Part shown: positions 10,711-17,915 of the stretch, one piece after another
How the letters are laid out: each line of letters starts with the position of its first letter
Position numbering within the stretch: the first letter of the stretch is position 1
Position numbers and translations under genes: made by a program
From: Archangium primigenium
Lineage (GTDB): Bacteria; Myxococcota; Myxococcia; Myxococcales; Myxococcaceae
Assembly (NCBI RefSeq): GCF_016904885.1
Contig: NZ_JADWYI010000001.1
Coordinates: 8,799,224-8,863,223 of the forward strand
Direction of reading: 5' to 3'
Length of the DNA stretch: 64,000 nt
The notes under the pieces: model-generated
The model's database searches: none
Told to the model about the DNA's origin: nothing
Seen by the model: only the letters and a program-made list of their open reading frames with translations

Positions 10711-12270
10711 ATGAATCTGCCCAACATCACCTCGGCGGACTTCCTCCCCCTGCTGCCCGCCATCATCCTGGTGGTGGGAGCGTGCGTGCTGCTGCTCTCG
10801 GAGGTGTTCCTCTCCGCGGGCGCGTCGCGCGGCTACCAGGCGGCCCTCACCGCCCTCACGTCCGTCATCGCCGGGGCCGTGTCCCTGCGGCTGCTGTTCG
10901 AGCCCGCGCGCCAGGTGTTCCTCGGCTTTGGCGCCCTGGATCCGTTCTCCAGCTTCCTCACGTTCATCGTCTGCGTGGCGCTGACCCTGGCGGCGCTCAC
11001 CGCGGCCACCTTCCTGCGCCGCCGCGGCGCCGAGCGCGGCGAGTTCTACGCGCTGATGCTCTTCGCGGGCGCGGGCATGAGCCTGCTGGGCCTGTCCAAC
11101 GAGCTCATCACGCTCTTCATCAGCATCGAGGTGCTGTCGATCTCGACGTACGCGCTCACGAGCTTCCTGCGCCGGGGCACTCGTCCGAGCGAGGCGGGCT
11201 TCAAGTACTTCATCCTCGGGGCCTTCTCGTCCGCGGTGCTGCTCTACGGCGCGGCGCTGCTCTACGGGGCCACGGGCACGACGCTGCTCGGGGAGATGAT
11301 CGAGCCGCTGCGCGCCGCCATGCGCACCCAGGCGCCGCTCGTGTACGCGGGCGCGGTGCTGGTGGCCGCCGGCTTCGCCTTCAAGGTCGCCGCGGTGCCC
11401 TTCCACATGTGGACGCCGGACGTGTACGAGGGAGCCCCCACGCCCGTCACCGCGCTGATGAGCGCCGGCGTGAAGGCCGCCGCCTTCGTGGCGCTCGTGC
11501 GCGTGTTCGTCACCGTGGGCGCGGGCATCAGCCCCAAGCTGCCCTTCGCGCTGTTCTCCACGCTGGCGCTGCTCACCATGGTCGGCGGCAACCTGCTCGC
11601 CCTGCCCCAGCGCAACGTCAAGCGCATGCTGGCCTACTCCTCCATCGCGCACGCCGGCTACCTGCTGCTGGGCGTGGCGGCGCTCTTCAGCGTCCAGCCG
11701 GAGACGGGGCTGCGGCTGCTGGGCGCCACCTCGGTGGTGGGCGCCAGCGCCCAGGCCGTGGTGCACACCGAGGCCTTGCGCAGCATCCTCTTCTACCTGC
11801 TCGCCTACACCGTCACCACCATGGGCGCCTTCGGCATCGTGTCCCTCGTGGAGCGGCGCGAGGACGAGGAGAAGGGCACGGCGTGGGACCGCGACCGCTT
11901 GAGCGGGCTCGCCCAGCGCCGTCCGGGTTGGGCCTTCGCGATGGCCGCCTTCATGCTGTCGCTGGCGGGCATTCCGCCCACCGTGGGCTTCATGGGCAAG
12001 CTGCTGCTGTTCCGCGCCGCCGTGGACGCGGGCCTCATCGGCCTCACCCTCGTGGCGGTGCTCTCCAGCGTGGCCGGCGCCTACTACTACCTGCGCGTGG
12101 TCATCTACATGTACATGCGCCCGGTGCCCGAGGGCGCCCAGCCGCTCGAGCGCGCGTGGATGACGGAGCTCGTGCTCGTCATCTCCACCGCCGCCGTGGT
12201 GCTGCTGGGCATCCTGCCCGGCCCCCTGAGCGAGTGGATCAACCAGGCCGGAACGTTGCTGGGCCGCTGA
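10711..12270 (+). CDS. nuoN: NADH-quinone oxidoreductase subunit N
   Basis: A 519-residue antiporter-like subunit and the last gene of the cluster. Key sequence: SIEVLSISTYALTSFLRR, the channel region FKVAAVPFHMWTPDVYEGAPTPVTALMSAGVKAAAF, and NVKRMLAYSSIAHAGYLLLG. The ATG at 10711 follows the nuoM stop by 16 bp. A perfect hairpin terminator lies about 25 bp downstream, and no further coding sequence follows before the sRNA array, so the operon ends here. Confidence 0.95.
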   Translation: MNLPNITSADFLPLLPAIILVVGACVLLLSEVFLSAGASRGYQAALTALTSVIAGAVSLRLLFEPARQVFLGFGALDPFSSFLTFIVCVALTLAALTAATFLRRRGAERGEFYALMLFAGAGMSLLGLSNELITLFISIEVLSISTYALTSFLRRGTRPSEAGFKYFILGAFSSAVLLYGAALLYGATGTTLLGEMIEPLRAAMRTQAPLVYAGAVLVAAGFAFKVAAVPFHMWTPDVYEGAPTPVTALMSAGVKAAAFVALVRVFVTVGAGISPKLPFALFSTLALLTMVGGNLLALPQRNVKRMLAYSSIAHAGYLLLGVAALFSVQPETGLRLLGATSVVGASAQAVVHTEALRSILFYLLAYTVTTMGAFGIVSLVERREDEEKGTAWDRDRLSGLAQRRPGWAFAMAAFMLSLAGIPPTVGFMGKLLLFRAAVDAGLIGLTLVAVLSSVAGAYYYLRVVIYMYMRPVPEGAQPLERAWMTELVLVISTAAVVLLGILPGPLSEWINQAGTLLGR

Positions 12271-12365: not shown

Positions 12366-12491
12366 GAAAAAGAAGGCGGCCCGGCAACCCCATGGGGGAT
12401 ACCGGGCCGCAGGTTCTTCTCAAGAAACACGTCGGAAGACTGAAGGCGGTGGGGGGGAACCTCCTTCGATCTCGCGGCAACGTGCTTCGTC
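12366..12491 (-). ncRNA. Pxr-like sRNA, copy 5 (distal)
   Basis: Last copy in transcription order, with an inferred start near 12491, about 12 bp past the -12 element. The transcript holds the seven-cytosine run (complement of 12451-12457) inside a GAAGG/CCUUC hairpin and ends in a terminator: stem GCGGCCCGG (complement of 12402-12410) with CCGGGCCGC (12376-12384), then CUUCUUUUUC (12375-12366). The terminator loop differs from the other copies (CCCCCAUGGGG). The identity with Pxr rests on context and the C7 loop, not on an alignment. Confidence 0.65.
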
Positions 12492-12501
12492 TGAGAGCTA
12501 T

Positions 12502-12517
12502 AGCACCCCGCGTGCCA
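12502..12517 (-). promoter_or_regulatory. Sigma-54 promoter of sRNA copy 5
   Basis: On the minus strand TGGCACGCGGGGTGCT fits the sigma-54 consensus TGGCACG-N4-TTGC with GG and GC correctly spaced at -24 and -12; one mismatch (G for T before TGC). Confidence 0.75.
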
Positions 12518-12590
12518 CGCCCATGGGCGAGGGAAAGTCTCGCGATTCCAAGAGGTTGGCGCGGGAGGCGCGGCGAGGGCCACCTCGGGC

Positions 12591-12639
12591 TTTCACTCCT
12601 GCAATTGCAGCGGTGAAATGGCCTTTCACATCTGAAAGG
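12591..12639 (-). promoter_or_regulatory. Upstream inverted repeats (activator-site candidates) for sRNA copy 5
   Basis: Contains CCTTTCA-CATC-TGAAAGG (12622-12639, perfect 7-bp arms) and CTGCAATTGCAG (12599-12610, perfect palindrome) nested in TTTCAC...GTGAAA (12591-12618). They lie about 75-120 bp upstream of the promoter, the usual place for NtrC-type enhancer sites. Confidence 0.55.
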
Positions 12640-12688
12640 CGGCCCGGCCCAGACGGGCTCACGGGGGCGCTCGGAGGCTCCGAGGCCG

Positions 12689-12819
12689 GAAAAAGAAGGC
12701 GGCCCGGTACCCTTCCGAAGAGAGGGTGACCGGGCCGCGGGTTCTTCTCAAGAAGCTCGCCAGAAGGGCTGAAGGCGGTGGGGGGGAACCTCCTTCGACC
12801 AGCTTCGACATGCTCCGAC
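12689..12819 (-). ncRNA. Pxr-like sRNA, copy 4
   Basis: About 131 nt from an inferred start near 12819. In order: a GAAGCU stretch that can pair with a later AGCUUC, the GAAGG / CCUUC hairpin with the CCCCCCC loop, a small CUUC-UUGA-GAAG hairpin, and the terminator stem GCGGCCCGGT / ACCGGGCCGC (perfect 10 bp, 12738-12699) followed by CUUCUUUUUCC. Nearly identical to copies 2 and 3. Confidence 0.68.
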
Positions 12820-12829
12820 GGAGGGCTAT

Positions 12830-12845
12830 AGCACCCCGCGTGCCA
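12830..12845 (-). promoter_or_regulatory. Sigma-54 promoter of sRNA copy 4
   Basis: Same TGGCACG-CGGG-GTGCT element as copy 5, 328 bp away. Confidence 0.75.
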
Positions 12846-12918
12846 CGCCCATGGACACGAGAAAGCCTCGCGATTCCAAGAGGTTGGCGCGAAGGGACCC
12901 ACCGCCGCCGCGTCCAGC

Positions 12919-12967
12919 TTTCACTCCTGCAATTGCAGCGGTGAAATGGCCTTTCACATCTGAAAGG
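12919..12967 (-). promoter_or_regulatory. Upstream inverted repeats for sRNA copy 4
   Basis: Identical to the block at 12591-12639: CCTTTCA-N4-TGAAAGG and the CTGCAATTGCAG palindrome at the same distance from the promoter. Confidence 0.55.
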
Positions 12968-13016
12968 CGGCCCGGCCCAGACGGGCTCACGGGGGCGCTC
13001 GGAGGCTCCGAGGCCG

Positions 13017-13147
13017 GAAAAAGAAGGCGGCCCAGTACCCTTCCGAAGAGAGGGTGACCGGGCCGCGGGTTCTTCTCAAGAAGCTCGCCAGAAGGGCTGA
13101 AGGCGGTGGGGGGGAACCTCCTTCGACCAGCTTCGACATGCTCCGAC
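13017..13147 (-). ncRNA. Pxr-like sRNA, copy 3
   Basis: Differs from copy 4 in the transcript only at the terminator stem, where one G-C pair becomes a G-U wobble (GCGGCCCAGT on the plus strand at 13027), so pairing is kept. The C7 loop and U-rich tail are intact. Confidence 0.68.
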
Positions 13148-13157
13148 GGAGGGCTAT

Positions 13158-13173
13158 AGCACCCCGCGTGCCA
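13158..13173 (-). promoter_or_regulatory. Sigma-54 promoter of sRNA copy 3
   Basis: TGGCACG-CGGG-GTGCT on the minus strand, identical to copies 2, 4 and 5. Confidence 0.75.
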
Positions 13174-13246
13174 CGCCCATGGACACGAGAAAGCCTCGCG
13201 ATTCCAAGAGGTTGGCGCGAAGGGACCCACCGCCACCGCGTCCAGC

Positions 13247-13295
13247 TTTCACTCCTGCAATTGCAGCGGTGAAATGGCCTTTCACATCTGAAAGG
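13247..13295 (-). promoter_or_regulatory. Upstream inverted repeats for sRNA copy 3
   Basis: Same pair of inverted repeats as in the other array units, 75-120 bp upstream of the promoter. Confidence 0.55.
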
Positions 13296-13344
13296 CGGCC
13301 CGGCCCAGACGGGCTCACGGGGGCGCTCGGAGGCTCCGAGGCCG

Positions 13345-13475
13345 GAAAAAGAAGGCGGCCCGGTACCCTTCCGAAGAAAGGGTGACCGGGCCGCGGGTTC
13401 TTCTCAAGAAGCTCGCCAGAAGGGCTGAAGGCGGTGGGGGGGAACCTCCTTCGACCAGCTTCGACATGCTCCGAC
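13345..13475 (-). ncRNA. Pxr-like sRNA, copy 2
   Basis: Transcribed part is nearly identical to copies 3 and 4, with one change in the terminator loop (AAAGGG for AGAGGG at about 13378). Stem GCGGCCCGGT / ACCGGGCCGC is perfect (13394-13355). The DNA upstream of its promoter is more diverged than the RNA itself, which suggests the RNA is the conserved part. Confidence 0.68.
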
Positions 13476-13485
13476 GGAGGGCTAT

Positions 13486-13501
13486 AGCACCCCGCGTGCC
13501 A
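13486..13501 (-). promoter_or_regulatory. Sigma-54 promoter of sRNA copy 2
   Basis: TGGCACG-CGGG-GTGCT on the minus strand, identical to the downstream copies. Confidence 0.75.
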
Positions 13502-13574
13502 CGCCCACGGGCACGAGAAAGCCCCGCGATTCCAAGGGGTTGGCACGAGGGGACCCACCGCTACCGCGTCCAGC

Positions 13575-13623
13575 TTTCACTCCTGCAATTGCAGCGGTGA
13601 AATGGCCTTTCACATCTGAAAGG
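13575..13623 (-). promoter_or_regulatory. Upstream inverted repeats for sRNA copy 2
   Basis: CCTTTCA-CATC-TGAAAGG (13606-13623) and CTGCAATTGCAG (13583-13594), as in the other units, although the flanking sequence has changed. Confidence 0.55.
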
Positions 13624-13650
13624 CGGCCCGGCTCGCGGAGGCTTCGAGGC

Positions 13651-13777
13651 CGGAAAAGAAGGCGGCCCGGTCCTCTCCGAAGAGCGAACCGGGCCGCGGG
13701 TTCTTCCAAAGGAAGCACATCGGAGCGCTGAAGGGGTGGGGGGGAACCACTTCATCGCCGCGTCAACGTGCTCTGAC
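13651..13777 (-). ncRNA. Pxr-like sRNA, copy 1 (next to the regulator genes)
   Basis: The copy directly downstream of the NtrC-like gene and the most diverged in sequence. It keeps the CCCCCCC run in a GAAG / CUUC hairpin (complement of about 13731-13755) and a terminator with a perfect 10-bp stem (13697-13662) and a CUUCUUUUCC tail. In Myxococcus xanthus, as I recall, pxr sits directly downstream of the kinase and regulator genes pxrK and pxrR; this copy occupies that place, so it is the best ortholog candidate. Confidence 0.68.
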
Positions 13778-13787
13778 GGGATTACCT

Positions 13788-13803
13788 AGCACACCCCATG
13801 CCA
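13788..13803 (-). promoter_or_regulatory. Sigma-54 promoter of sRNA copy 1
   Basis: TGGCATG-GGGT-GTGCT on the minus strand: GG and GC keep the -24/-12 spacing, though two positions differ from the other copies. Confidence 0.7.
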
Positions 13804-13879: not shown

Positions 13880-13957
13880 CATTGCACCTCTGCAATGCCT
13901 TTGCAGGTCTGCAAATCCCCAGTGCTCTCGGGGGCTTATACGTTTCAGCGTTGAAAC
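13880..13957 (-). promoter_or_regulatory. Cluster of three inverted repeats, likely activator binding sites upstream of copy 1
   Basis: Three perfect inverted repeats with 4-bp spacers: CATTGCA-CCTC-TGCAATG (13880-13897), TTTGCA-GGTC-TGCAAA (13900-13915) and GTTTCA-GCGT-TGAAAC (13942-13957). Together with CCTTTCA-CATC-TGAAAGG in the array they share the form TT(G/T)CA-N4-TG(A/C)AA. The first two are centred about 86 and 105 bp upstream of the -24 element. They lie between the NtrC-like gene and the first sRNA promoter. Confidence 0.6.
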
Positions 13958-13983: not shown

Positions 13984-15408
13984 TCACTCGCGGTGCTCGC
14001 CCCCGGCGGGGCGCAGGTTCAAGCGCTTCATCTTGCGCCAGAGGGTGGTGGAGGAGATGGCCAGTTCCTCGGCGACGCGGCCGAGGTCCGTCTGGTAGCG
14101 CTCCAGGGCCTGGGCGATCGCCCGGCGCTCGGCGTCCTCCACGGACTCGGCGAGCGTGGGCAGCCGACCGCCGCTCTCCGCCGCGAGCGGCAGGGGCGGC
14201 GCGCCCAGCTCGCCCCCCGTCACGCGGTTGGGCCGCAGGGGGAAGTCCTCGGGCAGGAGCTCGTCGCTCTCGGAGAGGGCGGCGGCCTGTTCCACCAGGT
14301 TCTCCAGCTCGCGCACGTTGCCCGGGAAGCTGTAGCCCATGAGGTGCTCCACCGCCGAGGTGGACAGGCTCTTGCGCTTGGAGCTGCGGGCATTGGCGCG
14401 CTTGAGGAAGTGCTCGGCCAGGGCCGGTACGTCCTCCAGGCGCTCGCGCAGCGGCGGCACCCGCAGCGTCACCACGTTGAGCCGGTAATAGAGGTCCTGC
14501 CGGAAGCGCTTCTCGCGCACCTCCAGCTCGATGTCGCGGTTGGTGGCGGCGACGATGCGCACGTCCACCTTCTGGGTGATGGACTCGCCCACGCGCCGGA
14601 CCTCGCCGTCCTGCAGCGTGCGCAGCAGCTTGGACTGGAAGGCGGGCGTCGTCTCCGTCACCTCGTCGATGAAGAGCGTGCCCCCGTGGGCCTCCTCCAC
14701 CAGGCCGCGGCGCGCGCGCACCGCGCCCGTGAAGGCCCCCTTGGCGTGGCCGAACAGCTCGCTCTCCAGGAGCGTCTCGGAGATGGCCGCGCAGTTGACG
14801 GGCACGAAGGCCAGCTTCTGCCGCCGGCTGTGGGCGTGCACCGCGCGCGCGACGAGCTCCTTGCCCGTGCCGCTCTCGCCCTGCACCAGCACCGTGGCAT
14901 CGCTCTGCGCCACGCGCATGAGCCGCGAGGACAGCTCCGTCATGGCGGGGCTGCTGCCCACCAGCGCGCTCAGGCCGTGGCGCTCGTTGAACTCGCCCGT
15001 CAGCCGATCCACGGTGGCCAGGAGCTGCGCCCGCTCCTGCGCGCGCTGCACCCGGTAGAGCAGCTCGCCTTCCTTGAAGGGCTTGGTGACGTAGTCGAAC
15101 GCCCCCTGACGCATGGCCTCCACCGCGCTCTCGATGGAGCCAAAGGCCGTCATCATGATGACCTGCAGCCGCGGGTTCACCTCCAGGGCCTTCTTGAGCA
15201 GGGTGAGCCCGTCCATGGGCTCCATCTTCAAGTCGGTGAGCATCAGGTCCACGCGGCTGGAGCCCAGCTTGGCCAGGGCCTCCTCGCCCCCGGCCGCCTG
15301 CTGCACGTCGTAGTTCTCCGAGCTCAAGAGGAGCGCGGTGGTGGCGCGCATGTTCTTCTGATCGTCCACGACCAGGATGTGTCCGCGAGGCGGAGAGGCG
15401 TCTTTCAC
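13984..15408 (-). CDS. pxrR: NtrC-family sigma-54-dependent response regulator (PxrR-like)
   Basis: A 474-residue activator with receiver domain (about 8-125, likely phospho-acceptor Asp59 in LMLTDLKMEP), AAA+ domain (about 145-375, Walker A GESGTGKE, sigma-54-contact loop GAFTGA in KGAFTGAVRARRG, Walker B GGTLFIDEV), and a Fis-type helix-turn-helix (about 425-470, LGRVAEELAISSTTLWRKMKRL). The start is GTG 15408, overlapping the kinase stop as GTGA and placing the receiver at the right distance. It should activate sigma-54 promoters once phosphorylated by the upstream kinase; the nearest targets are the array promoters just downstream. The symbol rests on synteny with M. xanthus pxrK-pxrR-pxr as I remember it, so it is tentative. 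Confidence 0.88.
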   Translation of the reverse strand: MKDASPPRGHILVVDDQKNMRATTALLLSSENYDVQQAAGGEEALAKLGSSRVDLMLTDLKMEPMDGLTLLKKALEVNPRLQVIMMTAFGSIESAVEAMRQGAFDYVTKPFKEGELLYRVQRAQERAQLLATVDRLTGEFNERHGLSALVGSSPAMTELSSRLMRVAQSDATVLVQGESGTGKELVARAVHAHSRRQKLAFVPVNCAAISETLLESELFGHAKGAFTGAVRARRGLVEEAHGGTLFIDEVTETTPAFQSKLLRTLQDGEVRRVGESITQKVDVRIVAATNRDIELEVREKRFRQDLYYRLNVVTLRVPPLRERLEDVPALAEHFLKRANARSSKRKSLSTSAVEHLMGYSFPGNVRELENLVEQAAALSESDELLPEDFPLRPNRVTGGELGAPPLPLAAESGGRLPTLAESVEDAERRAIAQALERYQTDLGRVAEELAISSTTLWRKMKRLNLRPAGGEHRE

Positions 15409-17915
15409 GGAGGACTCGTCGGCTGGAAGAGGGGAAGACGGATGGAGAAGACGGTGCCACGGCCCAGCGTGCTCACCAGGGACACCTCGCCGTGGTGCTC
15501 CTCGATGATGCGCTTGACGACCGCGAGCCCCAGCCCCGTGCCCTGGGCCTTGGTGGTGAAGAAGGGCTCGAAGACCCGGTGCAGGAGCTCCGCGGGAATG
15601 CCGCCGCCCTGGTCGGACACGTCGATGCGCAGCATGTCCCGCCCGTCGTACAGCTCGGTGCGGGCGGACACGCGCACGGCCCCGCCCTGGGAGGACGTGG
15701 CCTGGAAGGCGTTGACGAGCACGTTGGTGAGCGCCTGGCGGATGAGCCGGCGGTCCAACGGCACGCGGGGCAGGTCCTCGGCCGCGTCGCTGACGGCGGA
15801 GATGTTCGAGGGACTGCCCTGCTGGCTCCACGCCGACTCGACGATCTCCTGGAGCAGGCGCGCCACGTCCTCGGGCTGGCGGATGGGCTCGCGCGGCCGG
15901 GTATAGTCCAAGAGGTCGCTCACCATGCGGTTGAGCCGGTCGCTCTCCTCGGAGAGGATGTCCAACAGCATGGCCGAGTCGGCGTTGGCGCCGAGCAGGC
16001 GGCGCAGGGAGGCCACGGCGTTGAAGATGACGCCCAGGGGGTTGCGCACCTCGTGGGCCACGATGGCCGACAGCTCGCCGAGCGCCGCGAGCCGCTCGCG
16101 CTTGACCATCTCCGCGCGCGCCGCGGCCAGCTCCGCGTAGGAGGCCCACAACGACTCGTAGAGCCGCGCGTTGGCGATGGCCAGGGCGATCTGCCCGCAC
16201 GTGGCCTCGGCCAGCTCCAGGATGGCGGGCGAGAAGACGCGCGGCCGGCGGGTGTCGGACACCACCACCACGCCGATCAAGTCCTCGCGCGAGGTGAGCG
16301 GCAAGCCGAGCAGGGCCCGTGGCTGGAAGCGCAGGGCGAGCTCGGTGCGCGCCAGCTCCCCGCCGTTCTTGACCACGTCCGAGACGGTGACGAGCTGGCG
16401 GGCGCGGGCCACGCGTCCGGCGATCGTCAGCGAGTCGGCCACCGGCACCGTGAACCCCCGGAAGGACTCGCGCTGGGGCGAGGAGGCGGTGGCGCTGCGC
16501 AGCGTGTGGGTCTGCTCGTCGTACAGGTAGATGAAGCAGTCGGTGACGTCCAGCAGCCGCACGAGGAAGTCCGACGCCACCTCCAGGATGCTGGCCACCT
16601 CCAGGGTGGCCGCCGTGGTGCGCGCCATGTCCAGGAGCAGGCGCGAGTCGGAGAGCTGACGCGCGGACTCGGCCCGCAGGCGGCGCTGATCCATGAGCAT
16701 CATCAACAGCTCGGCCAGCGTGCCCAGCAGGCGCAGGTCATCCGAGCCCAGGGGGCGCTCGGGCCCGCGCACCACGCGCAGGAGGCCCTGACGCGCCCCG
16801 CCCTGGGACATGTGCACGAGCGCGCCCCGACCCAACCGCCCTCCGGACAGCGCCCGCCAGCGGCGCTCCTCCTCCTCGCCCAGGGGCTCCACGCCCCGCG
16901 CGGGGGTCACCGAGGGCGGCGGACCCGGCGGCGTGGCGAAGGCCTCCACCAGGGGCGCGTCCAGGCCCACCCGGGCCACCAGGTGCCACTCGTCGCGCTC
17001 GGAGGACACCGGCACGTGCAGCACCGCGGCCTCCGCGTTCAACAGCGCCGTCAGCCGGGAGAGGAAGTCCTCGAGCGAGGGCGGCTCCGGCAGGGCCACG
17101 AAGCGCGCCGTCTCCGCCACGACCGACATCTCCCAGCGGCCGCGCTCCACGTCCGCCAACATGCGCGCGTCCATGAGCGCCGCGCCCACCACCTTGGCGA
17201 AGAGCGCCAGGACCGGGCCATACGAGGGCGTCAGCTCCGGGCCCGACACCCACAACAGCTCCGCGGGCGGCGCGCCCAGGGGCAGGTAGACGGGCACCGT
17301 CATCCCATCCGAGGGGCCGAACACCGGCCGGCCATCGCGCAGCGCCTGGCGGCCCGGCTCGCCGTCCTCGTCCGCCTCGCCCTTCTCGCTCAGTTCGCCC
17401 TCGTGCGTCGCCAGGAAGCGGGCCGACAGGTTCGCCTGCGTCAGGCCCTCCACCGCCAGCCGCCGCACCGCCTCCTCCGAGCGCGCCGCCACGAGCTCCG
17501 CGGACGTCTCCACCAGGCGCTCGGCGACCTGCAGCTCCCCGGGCCGCTCCCCCAGGATCAGGTGGTTGCAGAGCATGGCCCAGCCGCTGCCCTCCAGCTC
17601 CACCTCTTGCACGTGCACGGCCAGCTCGCGCGGCCCATGCCCGGCGAGCGGCGGCAGCAGGTAGCGCCGCGGCGCCTCCTGCTTGAGCATGCCCTGCTCG
17701 CGCCGCCGGTAGCGCGCCTGCAGCCGCGCCCGGTCCTCCGTGTAGAGGAAGTCGAAGAAGGAACGGCCCTCCACCTGCTCGCGGCCCAGGCCGATCATCC
17801 GCACGTAGGCCTCGTTGGCCAGACGGATGCGACCCTCCTGCACCACGGCGATGGGGTTGGTGAGACTCTCGATGAGGCTCCGCAGGGACGCCTCGCTATA
17901 GCGATTCTTCGTCAT
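15405..17915 (-). CDS. pxrK: Cytosolic sensor histidine kinase with PAS and GAF-like domains (PxrK-like)
   Basis: An 836-residue kinase without transmembrane segments. An N-terminal PAS domain (about 5-130, NPIAVVQEGRIRLANEAYVRMIG) is followed by a long middle region with GAF-like segments (about 330-590), the dimerisation domain with phospho-acceptor His621 (IVAHEVRNPLG), and a C-terminal ATPase domain (N box NVLVNAFQA, DQGGGI, FFTTKAQGTGLGL). It probably senses a soluble signal and phosphorylates the regulator encoded by the overlapping downstream gene. ATG 17915 overlaps the selB stop (ATGA). The frame runs open further upstream only as antiphase selB sequence. The pxrK name is by synteny. 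Confidence 0.88.
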   Translation of the reverse strand: MTKNRYSEASLRSLIESLTNPIAVVQEGRIRLANEAYVRMIGLGREQVEGRSFFDFLYTEDRARLQARYRRREQGMLKQEAPRRYLLPPLAGHGPRELAVHVQEVELEGSGWAMLCNHLILGERPGELQVAERLVETSAELVAARSEEAVRRLAVEGLTQANLSARFLATHEGELSEKGEADEDGEPGRQALRDGRPVFGPSDGMTVPVYLPLGAPPAELLWVSGPELTPSYGPVLALFAKVVGAALMDARMLADVERGRWEMSVVAETARFVALPEPPSLEDFLSRLTALLNAEAAVLHVPVSSERDEWHLVARVGLDAPLVEAFATPPGPPPSVTPARGVEPLGEEEERRWRALSGGRLGRGALVHMSQGGARQGLLRVVRGPERPLGSDDLRLLGTLAELLMMLMDQRRLRAESARQLSDSRLLLDMARTTAATLEVASILEVASDFLVRLLDVTDCFIYLYDEQTHTLRSATASSPQRESFRGFTVPVADSLTIAGRVARARQLVTVSDVVKNGGELARTELALRFQPRALLGLPLTSREDLIGVVVVSDTRRPRVFSPAILELAEATCGQIALAIANARLYESLWASYAELAAARAEMVKRERLAALGELSAIVAHEVRNPLGVIFNAVASLRRLLGANADSAMLLDILSEESDRLNRMVSDLLDYTRPREPIRQPEDVARLLQEIVESAWSQQGSPSNISAVSDAAEDLPRVPLDRRLIRQALTNVLVNAFQATSSQGGAVRVSARTELYDGRDMLRIDVSDQGGGIPAELLHRVFEPFFTTKAQGTGLGLAVVKRIIEEHHGEVSLVSTLGRGTVFSIRLPLFQPTSPP

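Follow-up and report, generated by a model that had tools for sequence, protein, structure and literature searches.

Why would a bacterium keep five copies of a regulatory RNA gene side by side? This question is raised by a stretch of 64,000 nucleotides from the soil myxobacterium Archangium primigenium (contig NZ_JADWYI010000001.1, positions 8,799,224 to 8,863,223), which we refer to as the window. Between the stop codons of nuoN (12270) and pxrR (13984) lies a 1713-bp gap that holds five repeated units on the minus strand, spanning window positions 12368-13763. The order of parts is the same in each unit: dyad sites, then a sigma-54 promoter, then an RNA of about 110 to 115 nucleotides. A sequence-only reading of the window had placed five minus-strand units of a Pxr-like small RNA (sRNA) in a gap of about 1.7 kb after nuoN, and this layout was borne out. 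In Myxococcus xanthus, Pxr helps decide between growth and the building of fruiting bodies; it is made in growing cells, processed from Pxr-L to Pxr-S, and holds development back. Judged from its sequence, this is the pxrK-pxrR-pxr locus, amplified into a five-copy tandem pxr array.

The identity of the units was examined using the Pxr covariance model of Rfam (RF01812). All five units matched the model over positions 1 to 109 of 109, with scores of 63 to 73 bits and E-values of 2e-11 to 2.5e-9. Unit 1, the leader, adjoins pxrR (13654..13763; 68.2 bits, E 1.9e-10). Behind it on the same minus strand lie unit 2 (13347..13461; 66.9 bits, E 3.6e-10), unit 3 (13019..13133; 63.1 bits, E 2.5e-9), unit 4 (12691..12805; 66.5 bits, E 4.5e-10), and unit 5 (12368..12477; 72.7 bits, E 2e-11). 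When aligned with pxr of M. xanthus AM003, every unit was 77 to 80% identical to it. The proposal that the units are Pxr thus held in both the alignment and the model search, and we file them as Pxr on locus, promoter, loop, and E-value despite scores below the Rfam gathering cut-off.

The fold points the same way. GGTTCCCCCCCACC is present in five of five units, and its seven cytosines, the loop of stem-loop 1 (SL1), are unpaired in every predicted fold, as the sequence-only reading had claimed. In M. xanthus, Pxr loses its function when a cytosine of the SL1 loop is replaced by A (PMC5568312; PMC5684412). A strong 3' hairpin (SL3) was also found in all five units. This agrees only in part with the predicted terminator stem of 9 to 10 bp with a U-tail: several SL3 stems are longer, and no SL3 hairpin was picked up by a simple scan for terminators. 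Compared with shuffled sequences, the folds were stable (z of -3.4 to -5.2), with 0 of 200 shuffles as good for four units and 1 of 200 for unit 2. Both halves of the 8-bp SL3 core, GCGGCCCG and CGGGCCGC, occur in four units, and in unit 3 a single C to T substitution has left a G-U pair; we take the 8 bases scored to be the published SL3 core. Over all units examined, both core halves were exact in 47 of 74, a set that excludes three of the 20 loci fetched later (L112 and L113, with no match to the relaxed core, and L115, with eight cytosines). Open reading frames (ORFs) of 134 to 136 amino acids lie over units 2 to 5. We judged them noncoding because they run across promoter, RNA, and terminator, a judgment made from this layout and not from a coding test.

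Each unit has its own predicted promoter. The pattern TGGCAYN6TGCTA has five exact matches in the 64 kb, all on the minus strand and all at array units, with 0.02 expected. These are the -24/-12 promoters of unit 1 (TGGCATGGGGTGTGCTA, 13787..13803), unit 2 (13485..13501), unit 3 (13157..13173), unit 4 (12829..12845), and unit 5 (12501..12517). The form originally proposed for all of them, TGGCACG-N4-GTGC, is found in units 2 to 5; unit 1 reads TGGCATG. Across genomes, the GG-N10-GC promoter spacing was present in 70 of the 74 units. In M. xanthus, pxr is under pxrK/pxrR control and is sigma-54 dependent (PMC10217877; PMC5684412). These papers, together with PMC5568312, agree with the M. xanthus facts (pxrK/pxrR, sigma-54, cytosine loop) that the sequence-only reading had put forward.

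Upstream of the promoters, we identified a dyad, TTKCA-N4-TGMAA. It matched 15 times in the window, three times per unit and only in the array, with 0.05 expected; the motif was derived by reading the array upstream regions, so that this count is not independent of its discovery. In unit 1, exact matches at 13882-13895 and 13901-13914 are joined by a third, farther upstream and not abutting (13943-13956), giving a predicted enhancer at 13882..13956. The enhancers of unit 2 (13575..13621, with two of its dyads abutting), unit 3 (13247..13293), unit 4 (12919..12965), and unit 5 (12591..12637) each have three matches, likewise on the minus strand. With two mismatches allowed, at least two dyads lay upstream in 56 of 56 units tested, where first-order random sequence would give 1.9. 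That test used 24 sequences with 57 units, one of them dropped since its contig starts too near, and these sequences were read in the same step as the motif discovery. Among the 20 loci fetched later, 15 of the 18 units with a recognizable core had at least two dyads when one mismatch was allowed; L111 and L115 had one each and L118 had none (at most one mismatch). The two dyads of the usual pair are spaced 19 bp apart; among leaders, the end of the pair lies about 79 bp upstream of the -24 box. We believe that TTKCA-N4-TGMAA is the probable PxrR site. An enhancer-binding region of pxr is named in PMC5684412, in text passages that do not contain its sequence.

The dyads also separate leaders from the copies downstream of them. 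A further dyad stands 13 to 14 bp beyond the second in 30 of 30 downstream copies, 0 of 11 leaders, and 0 of 9 single-copy genes (one mismatch allowed). Relative to its place in 10 of 11 leaders, the main pair is shifted upstream by about 6 to 12 bp in 29 of 30 downstream copies. The leader pair (g1, g3, and the genus of G121) is the pair seen in single-copy species, and a shifted pair is found in the G044 leader and the single-copy gene L066 as well. As these units share a common descent, the extra dyad may go back to one event and have been kept since.

The regulators expected at a pxr locus lie directly upstream on the minus strand. pxrR (13984..15408) encodes an NtrC-type sigma-54 response regulator of 474 amino acids with receiver, sigma-54 interaction, and Fis-type DNA-binding domains (Response_reg, Sigma54_activat, HTH_8), and it is 77% identical (365/476) to PxrR of M. 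xanthus AM003. pxrK (15405..17915) encodes a PAS/GAF histidine kinase (HisKA, HATPase_c, GAF, PAS) of 836 amino acids, counted from the Met that lines up with the start in M. xanthus, with 57% identity (482/845) to the AM003 kinase. The kinase and NtrC-like regulator noticed earlier are therefore orthologs of PxrK and PxrR. Pxr synthesis in M. xanthus requires pxrR; pxrK also takes part in it, and perhaps in processing as well (PMC10217877; see also PMC5684412). The convergent flank of the array is nuoN (10711..12270, plus strand), which scored above the TIGR01770 cut-off and is 74% identical (384/519) to its positional counterpart in M. xanthus AM003. A likely Pxr target gene, pxrA (MXAN_1079), lies just downstream of pxr in M. 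xanthus (PMC11928866). It is not between the array and nuoN, the part of the genome searched for it, as the gap from unit 5 to nuoN is only 97 bp and cannot hold it. In M. xanthus AM003 itself (L063, 1912-2507), an acetyltransferase-like reading 3' of pxr, probably pxrA, extends over two short overlapping frames on the pxr strand, and this gene may be broken or mis-sequenced.

How common are such arrays? Among 145 genomes of the order, 93 had a Pxr match at an E-value of ≤0.001 and 61 had a match over the cut-off. At the pxr locus, we found 5, 4, 2, and 5 matches in the four genomes of the window's genus and 4, 5, 4, 2 (on two contigs), 5, and 4 in the six genomes of genus g3. All 10 genomes of these two genera thus carry two to five copies, and eight carry four or five, in counts where fragmented assemblies may have collapsed copies. 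In five other genera (g5, g6, g7, g8, and g19), 53 of 53 genomes have one copy, excluding a weak second match in G055 (G055:C46, L056, 35.6 bits) that aligns to RF01812 without the seven-cytosine loop and was set aside. The rest of the family has one (g2), zero to two (six genomes of g4), or zero to two copies (others), except for G121, whose four matches are two in tandem and two elsewhere. A DNA pattern search gave 14 named contigs: 13 with one copy in the stretch examined and one, from an Archangium metagenome-assembled genome, with two. Five copies had been called an unusual dosage. That wording should be softened, as eight of the 10 genomes of the window's genus and the neighboring g3 have four or five, and tandem paralogs have been published for Cystobacter (PMC5568312).

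The survey turned up several other records. The 80-bit gathering score of RF01812 misses Pxr genes, yet not every weak match is a Pxr gene. We rejected one more match in this genome, the sixth (C1:1410810-1410931, 38.4 bits; L006), which overlaps the end of a 349-amino-acid ORF and its terminator and has no seven-cytosine loop. L058 (BNCN01000002.1), which carries a pxr core, may be misnamed, as its title, Comamonas sp. KCTC 72670, does not fit. L101 (G121:C597), L102 (G121:C903), and L104 (G092:C355) each contain a Pxr-like RNA accompanied by a sigma-54 promoter and dyads (at most one mismatch), and the PxrR C terminus was not found in the stretches examined around them. By eye from the ORFs, the neighbors are a metallo-beta-lactamase-fold protein and a patatin-like protein (L101), a molybdopterin-type oxidoreductase and a methyltransferase-like protein (L102), and a coiled-coil protein and a methyltransferase-like protein (L104). 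Contamination is a possible source of all three, since both assemblies are fragmented.

The copies within the window are unequally alike. Units 2 to 4 are 97 to 99% identical to each other over -180 to +95, unit 5 is 79 to 81% identical to them, and unit 1 is 63 to 66% identical to the rest. Between 12361 and 13632, Tandem Repeats Finder reported a repeat period of 328 bp. When units were placed in a tree together with their enhancers, separate clades were formed by units 2 to 5 of the window's genome, G000 (100/100), by the downstream copies of the genus's other three genomes (100/100), and by units 3 to 5 of G044 (100/99). All downstream copies fall into one clade (98/96) that also contains the G121 leader. 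A weak group of orthologs (82/63) unites eight leaders, with two more beside it; the leaders of G045, G048, and G121 fall outside, and the downstream copies of G045 and G048 are intermixed. The tree of promoter and RNA only is less clean: unit 5 now groups with G073-G075 downstream copies (95/83), and the G045 and G048 leaders also fall among downstream copies. Inner branches drawn as open numbered 14 of 39 and 22 of 62 in the trees. A two-unit block is present twice in G075 (100% identity) and in G047 (96%). From these clades and repeated blocks, we conclude that arrays grow and become largely homogenized within species. For units 2 to 4, the sequences make this homogenization firm; for unit 5, it is uncertain. 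Much of the copy history, like the homology of the units and the conservation of their parts, can be read from the sequences. Genus g4 has a two-copy pxr tandem in G051, G052, and G053 (L051, L050, and L049) with long branches in the promoter and RNA tree. Its second copies have dyads 13 to 14 bp apart with weaker matches (up to two mismatches), and this tandem is apparently a separate duplication.

We also looked for decay among the copies. In the 12 array loci, 41 full-length covariance matches (48 to 101 bits) were obtained for 41 units with an intact core. As the units were picked by GGTTCCCCCCCACC, the count of intact loops is partly circular, and the covariance model serves as a check. 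No degenerate unit was found in these loci, where the sole other Pxr matches (27 and 24 bits) lie on the opposite strand. Between diverged copies of one genome, likeness was 0.85 for the promoter, 0.82 for SL1, and 0.84 for SL3, compared to 0.60 for both linker and spacer. Covariation over 53 RNAs was weak, with an RNAalifold covariance term of 0.4 and compensatory change in 5 of 14 predicted pairs (within groups, 8 of 35 pairs in downstream copies and 3 of 39 in leaders). In L046 units 2 and 4 (G047), the SL3 core is altered on both sides with pairing retained (GAGGCCCG with CGGGCTTC), which suggests selection for pairing there. A target scan of five genomes with GTGGGGGGGAA, the complement of the loop and its flanks, gave 38 matches, of which 17 were pxr genes; the reversed pattern gave 11. 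We compared 16 of the 21 other matches as whole loci, with 6 of the 16 on the other strand and not placed. Only one weak set recurred between genomes (31 to 36% identity; ORFs of L076, L078, and L100), and we propose no target.

Taken together, we believe that the array is best read as five Pxr genes, each transcribed on its own, that together increase and shape the dose of an RNA blocking development, a reading we hold to be probable though far from settled. Phosphorylated PxrR would bind the dyads about 75 to 120 bp upstream of a promoter and loop to sigma-54 polymerase at that unit's own -24/-12 promoter, and transcription of each unit would end at its own SL3 hairpin. Since the RNAs have the seven-cytosine loop in common, they would be expected to act on the same targets and hold back fruiting-body development during growth. 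Most likely, several units, with the extra abutting dyad on the downstream ones, would raise and steepen the Pxr dose obtained from PxrK/PxrR. PxrR binding, transcription, and the effect of dose on development in this species are what we infer. More tentatively, the array could be a two-tier dose device that recombination can retune: a conserved leader with a dyad pair, and downstream copies that have a third, abutting dyad and would respond differently to PxrR. The number of downstream copies would shift rapidly from species to species by unequal exchange, and the nutrient threshold for multicellular development might thereby evolve through sRNA copy number. We put this forward as a possibility that we would not favor.

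Several observations weigh against five Pxr genes acting by dose. None of the five units reaches the 80-bit gathering score of RF01812. The M. xanthus SL2, a short stem-loop between SL1 and SL3, is absent from the predicted folds of all five; the middle hairpin of unit 1 is a different one, and in units 2 to 4 the SL1 stem is rearranged in the minimum-energy fold. The enhancer segment is 0.67 alike between copies, little above the linker, in part because the dyads of leaders and of downstream copies are not in register. Of four Cystobacter paralogs tested in M. xanthus, two accumulated poorly and failed to block development; both were predicted without SL2, and the authors suggest structural differences as the cause (PMC5568312). 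Two such paralogs lacking SL2 in prediction imply that SL2 is not required for Pxr membership. Sister-array units in g1 and g3 fall on either side of the cut-off (57 to 101 bits). That the units are instead chance hairpins, terminator repeats, or an assembly artifact seems to us scarcely credible. Terminator-only false matches to RF01812 do occur, but the two that we examined have neither the seven-cytosine loop nor the locus, and the five units have SL1, loop, promoter, enhancers, and the pxrKR locus in common. The array sits within a single 9.47-Mb contig, which makes assembly collapse or false expansion unlikely, and the same arrangement recurs in other assemblies. For merodiploids, the authors of PMC5684412 suggest that PxrR and sigma-54 may be titrated by an additional pxr promoter region, so dose need not rise with copy number. 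Carried to its end, this idea makes the 15 dyads mainly a decoy that sets a threshold by titrating either protein. We regard that as very improbable; the RNAs downstream of the sites are conserved too, and a decoy would not need them.

A more serious contender is a division of labor, in which leader and downstream copies are regulated differently and perhaps differ in stability or targets, as specialized paralogs rather than a dose amplifier. The extra dyad, the shifted main pair, the place of most leaders outside the downstream-copy clade, and the unequal function of Cystobacter paralogs in M. xanthus (PMC5568312) all speak for it. Redundancy is nevertheless what the near identity of units 2 to 4, and of several downstream copies elsewhere, would suggest. 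The loop, the likely target contact, is identical in all five units; the extra dyad could go back to one event; the shifted pair of G044 and L066 crosses the divide; and the G121 leader sits among downstream copies. On balance, we think specialization unlikely, though it deserves attention. We are more doubtful still that unequal crossing-over has duplicated the repeat neutrally, with one or two copies doing all the work. Copy numbers of two to five within a genus (the low counts maybe from assembly collapse) and the repeated two-unit blocks are what such a process would leave behind. However, the covariance model found no decayed unit in the 12 array loci, a point of moderate weight as decay takes time and young copies have had little of it; diverged copies resemble each other more in promoter and RNA than in linkers; and arrays have been retained across two genera.

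Under the dose reading, near-identical copies that are gained and lost between related species offer a direct test of whether sRNA gene dosage sets a threshold for multicellularity. The dyads are a concrete, testable candidate for the PxrR site. A pipeline relying on the Rfam cut-off alone would miss all five units.

The first report of pxr paralogs is said to be that of Chen et al. 2014. The closest single-copy relative of this array is M. xanthus Pxr (RF01812) with pxrK/pxrR, which has the same SL1 seven-cytosine loop, SL3 terminator, sigma-54 promoter, upstream dyad pair, and place between pxrR and nuoN. M. xanthus AM003 has one pxr copy in the stretch examined (L063) compared to five here, its Pxr has the SL2 that our folds lack, and its species has pxrA just downstream, where the interval behind unit 5 is too short. 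Among Vibrio species, Qrr sRNA genes are under sigma-54 and LuxO control and are dispersed in the genome, unlike the tandem pxr units. The two systems are alike in working, with several sRNA copies, sigma-54 plus a response regulator, and redundant or additive action; we claim no homology. There are four Qrr copies in V. cholerae and five in V. harveyi (PMC5568312). Tandem pxr with separate sigma-54 promoters is a kind of locus already published: Cystobacter minor and C. violaceus have three tandem paralogs per strain, each with its own sigma-54 promoter, between nla19/pxrR and an NADH dehydrogenase gene (PMC5568312). We found no report of arrays of four or five copies, of their homogenization, or of TTKCA-N4-TGMAA dyads in the available passages of the open-licence Pxr literature searched. 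What is added here is a longer, partly homogenized array, copy number by genus, the distinction between leader and downstream copies, the dyad, and the extra downstream dyad. The Cystobacter paralogs are divergent and more alike between species than within one (PMC5568312), whereas the window has five copies, three of them almost identical, and arrays of its kind are largely homogenized within species, the opposite pattern.

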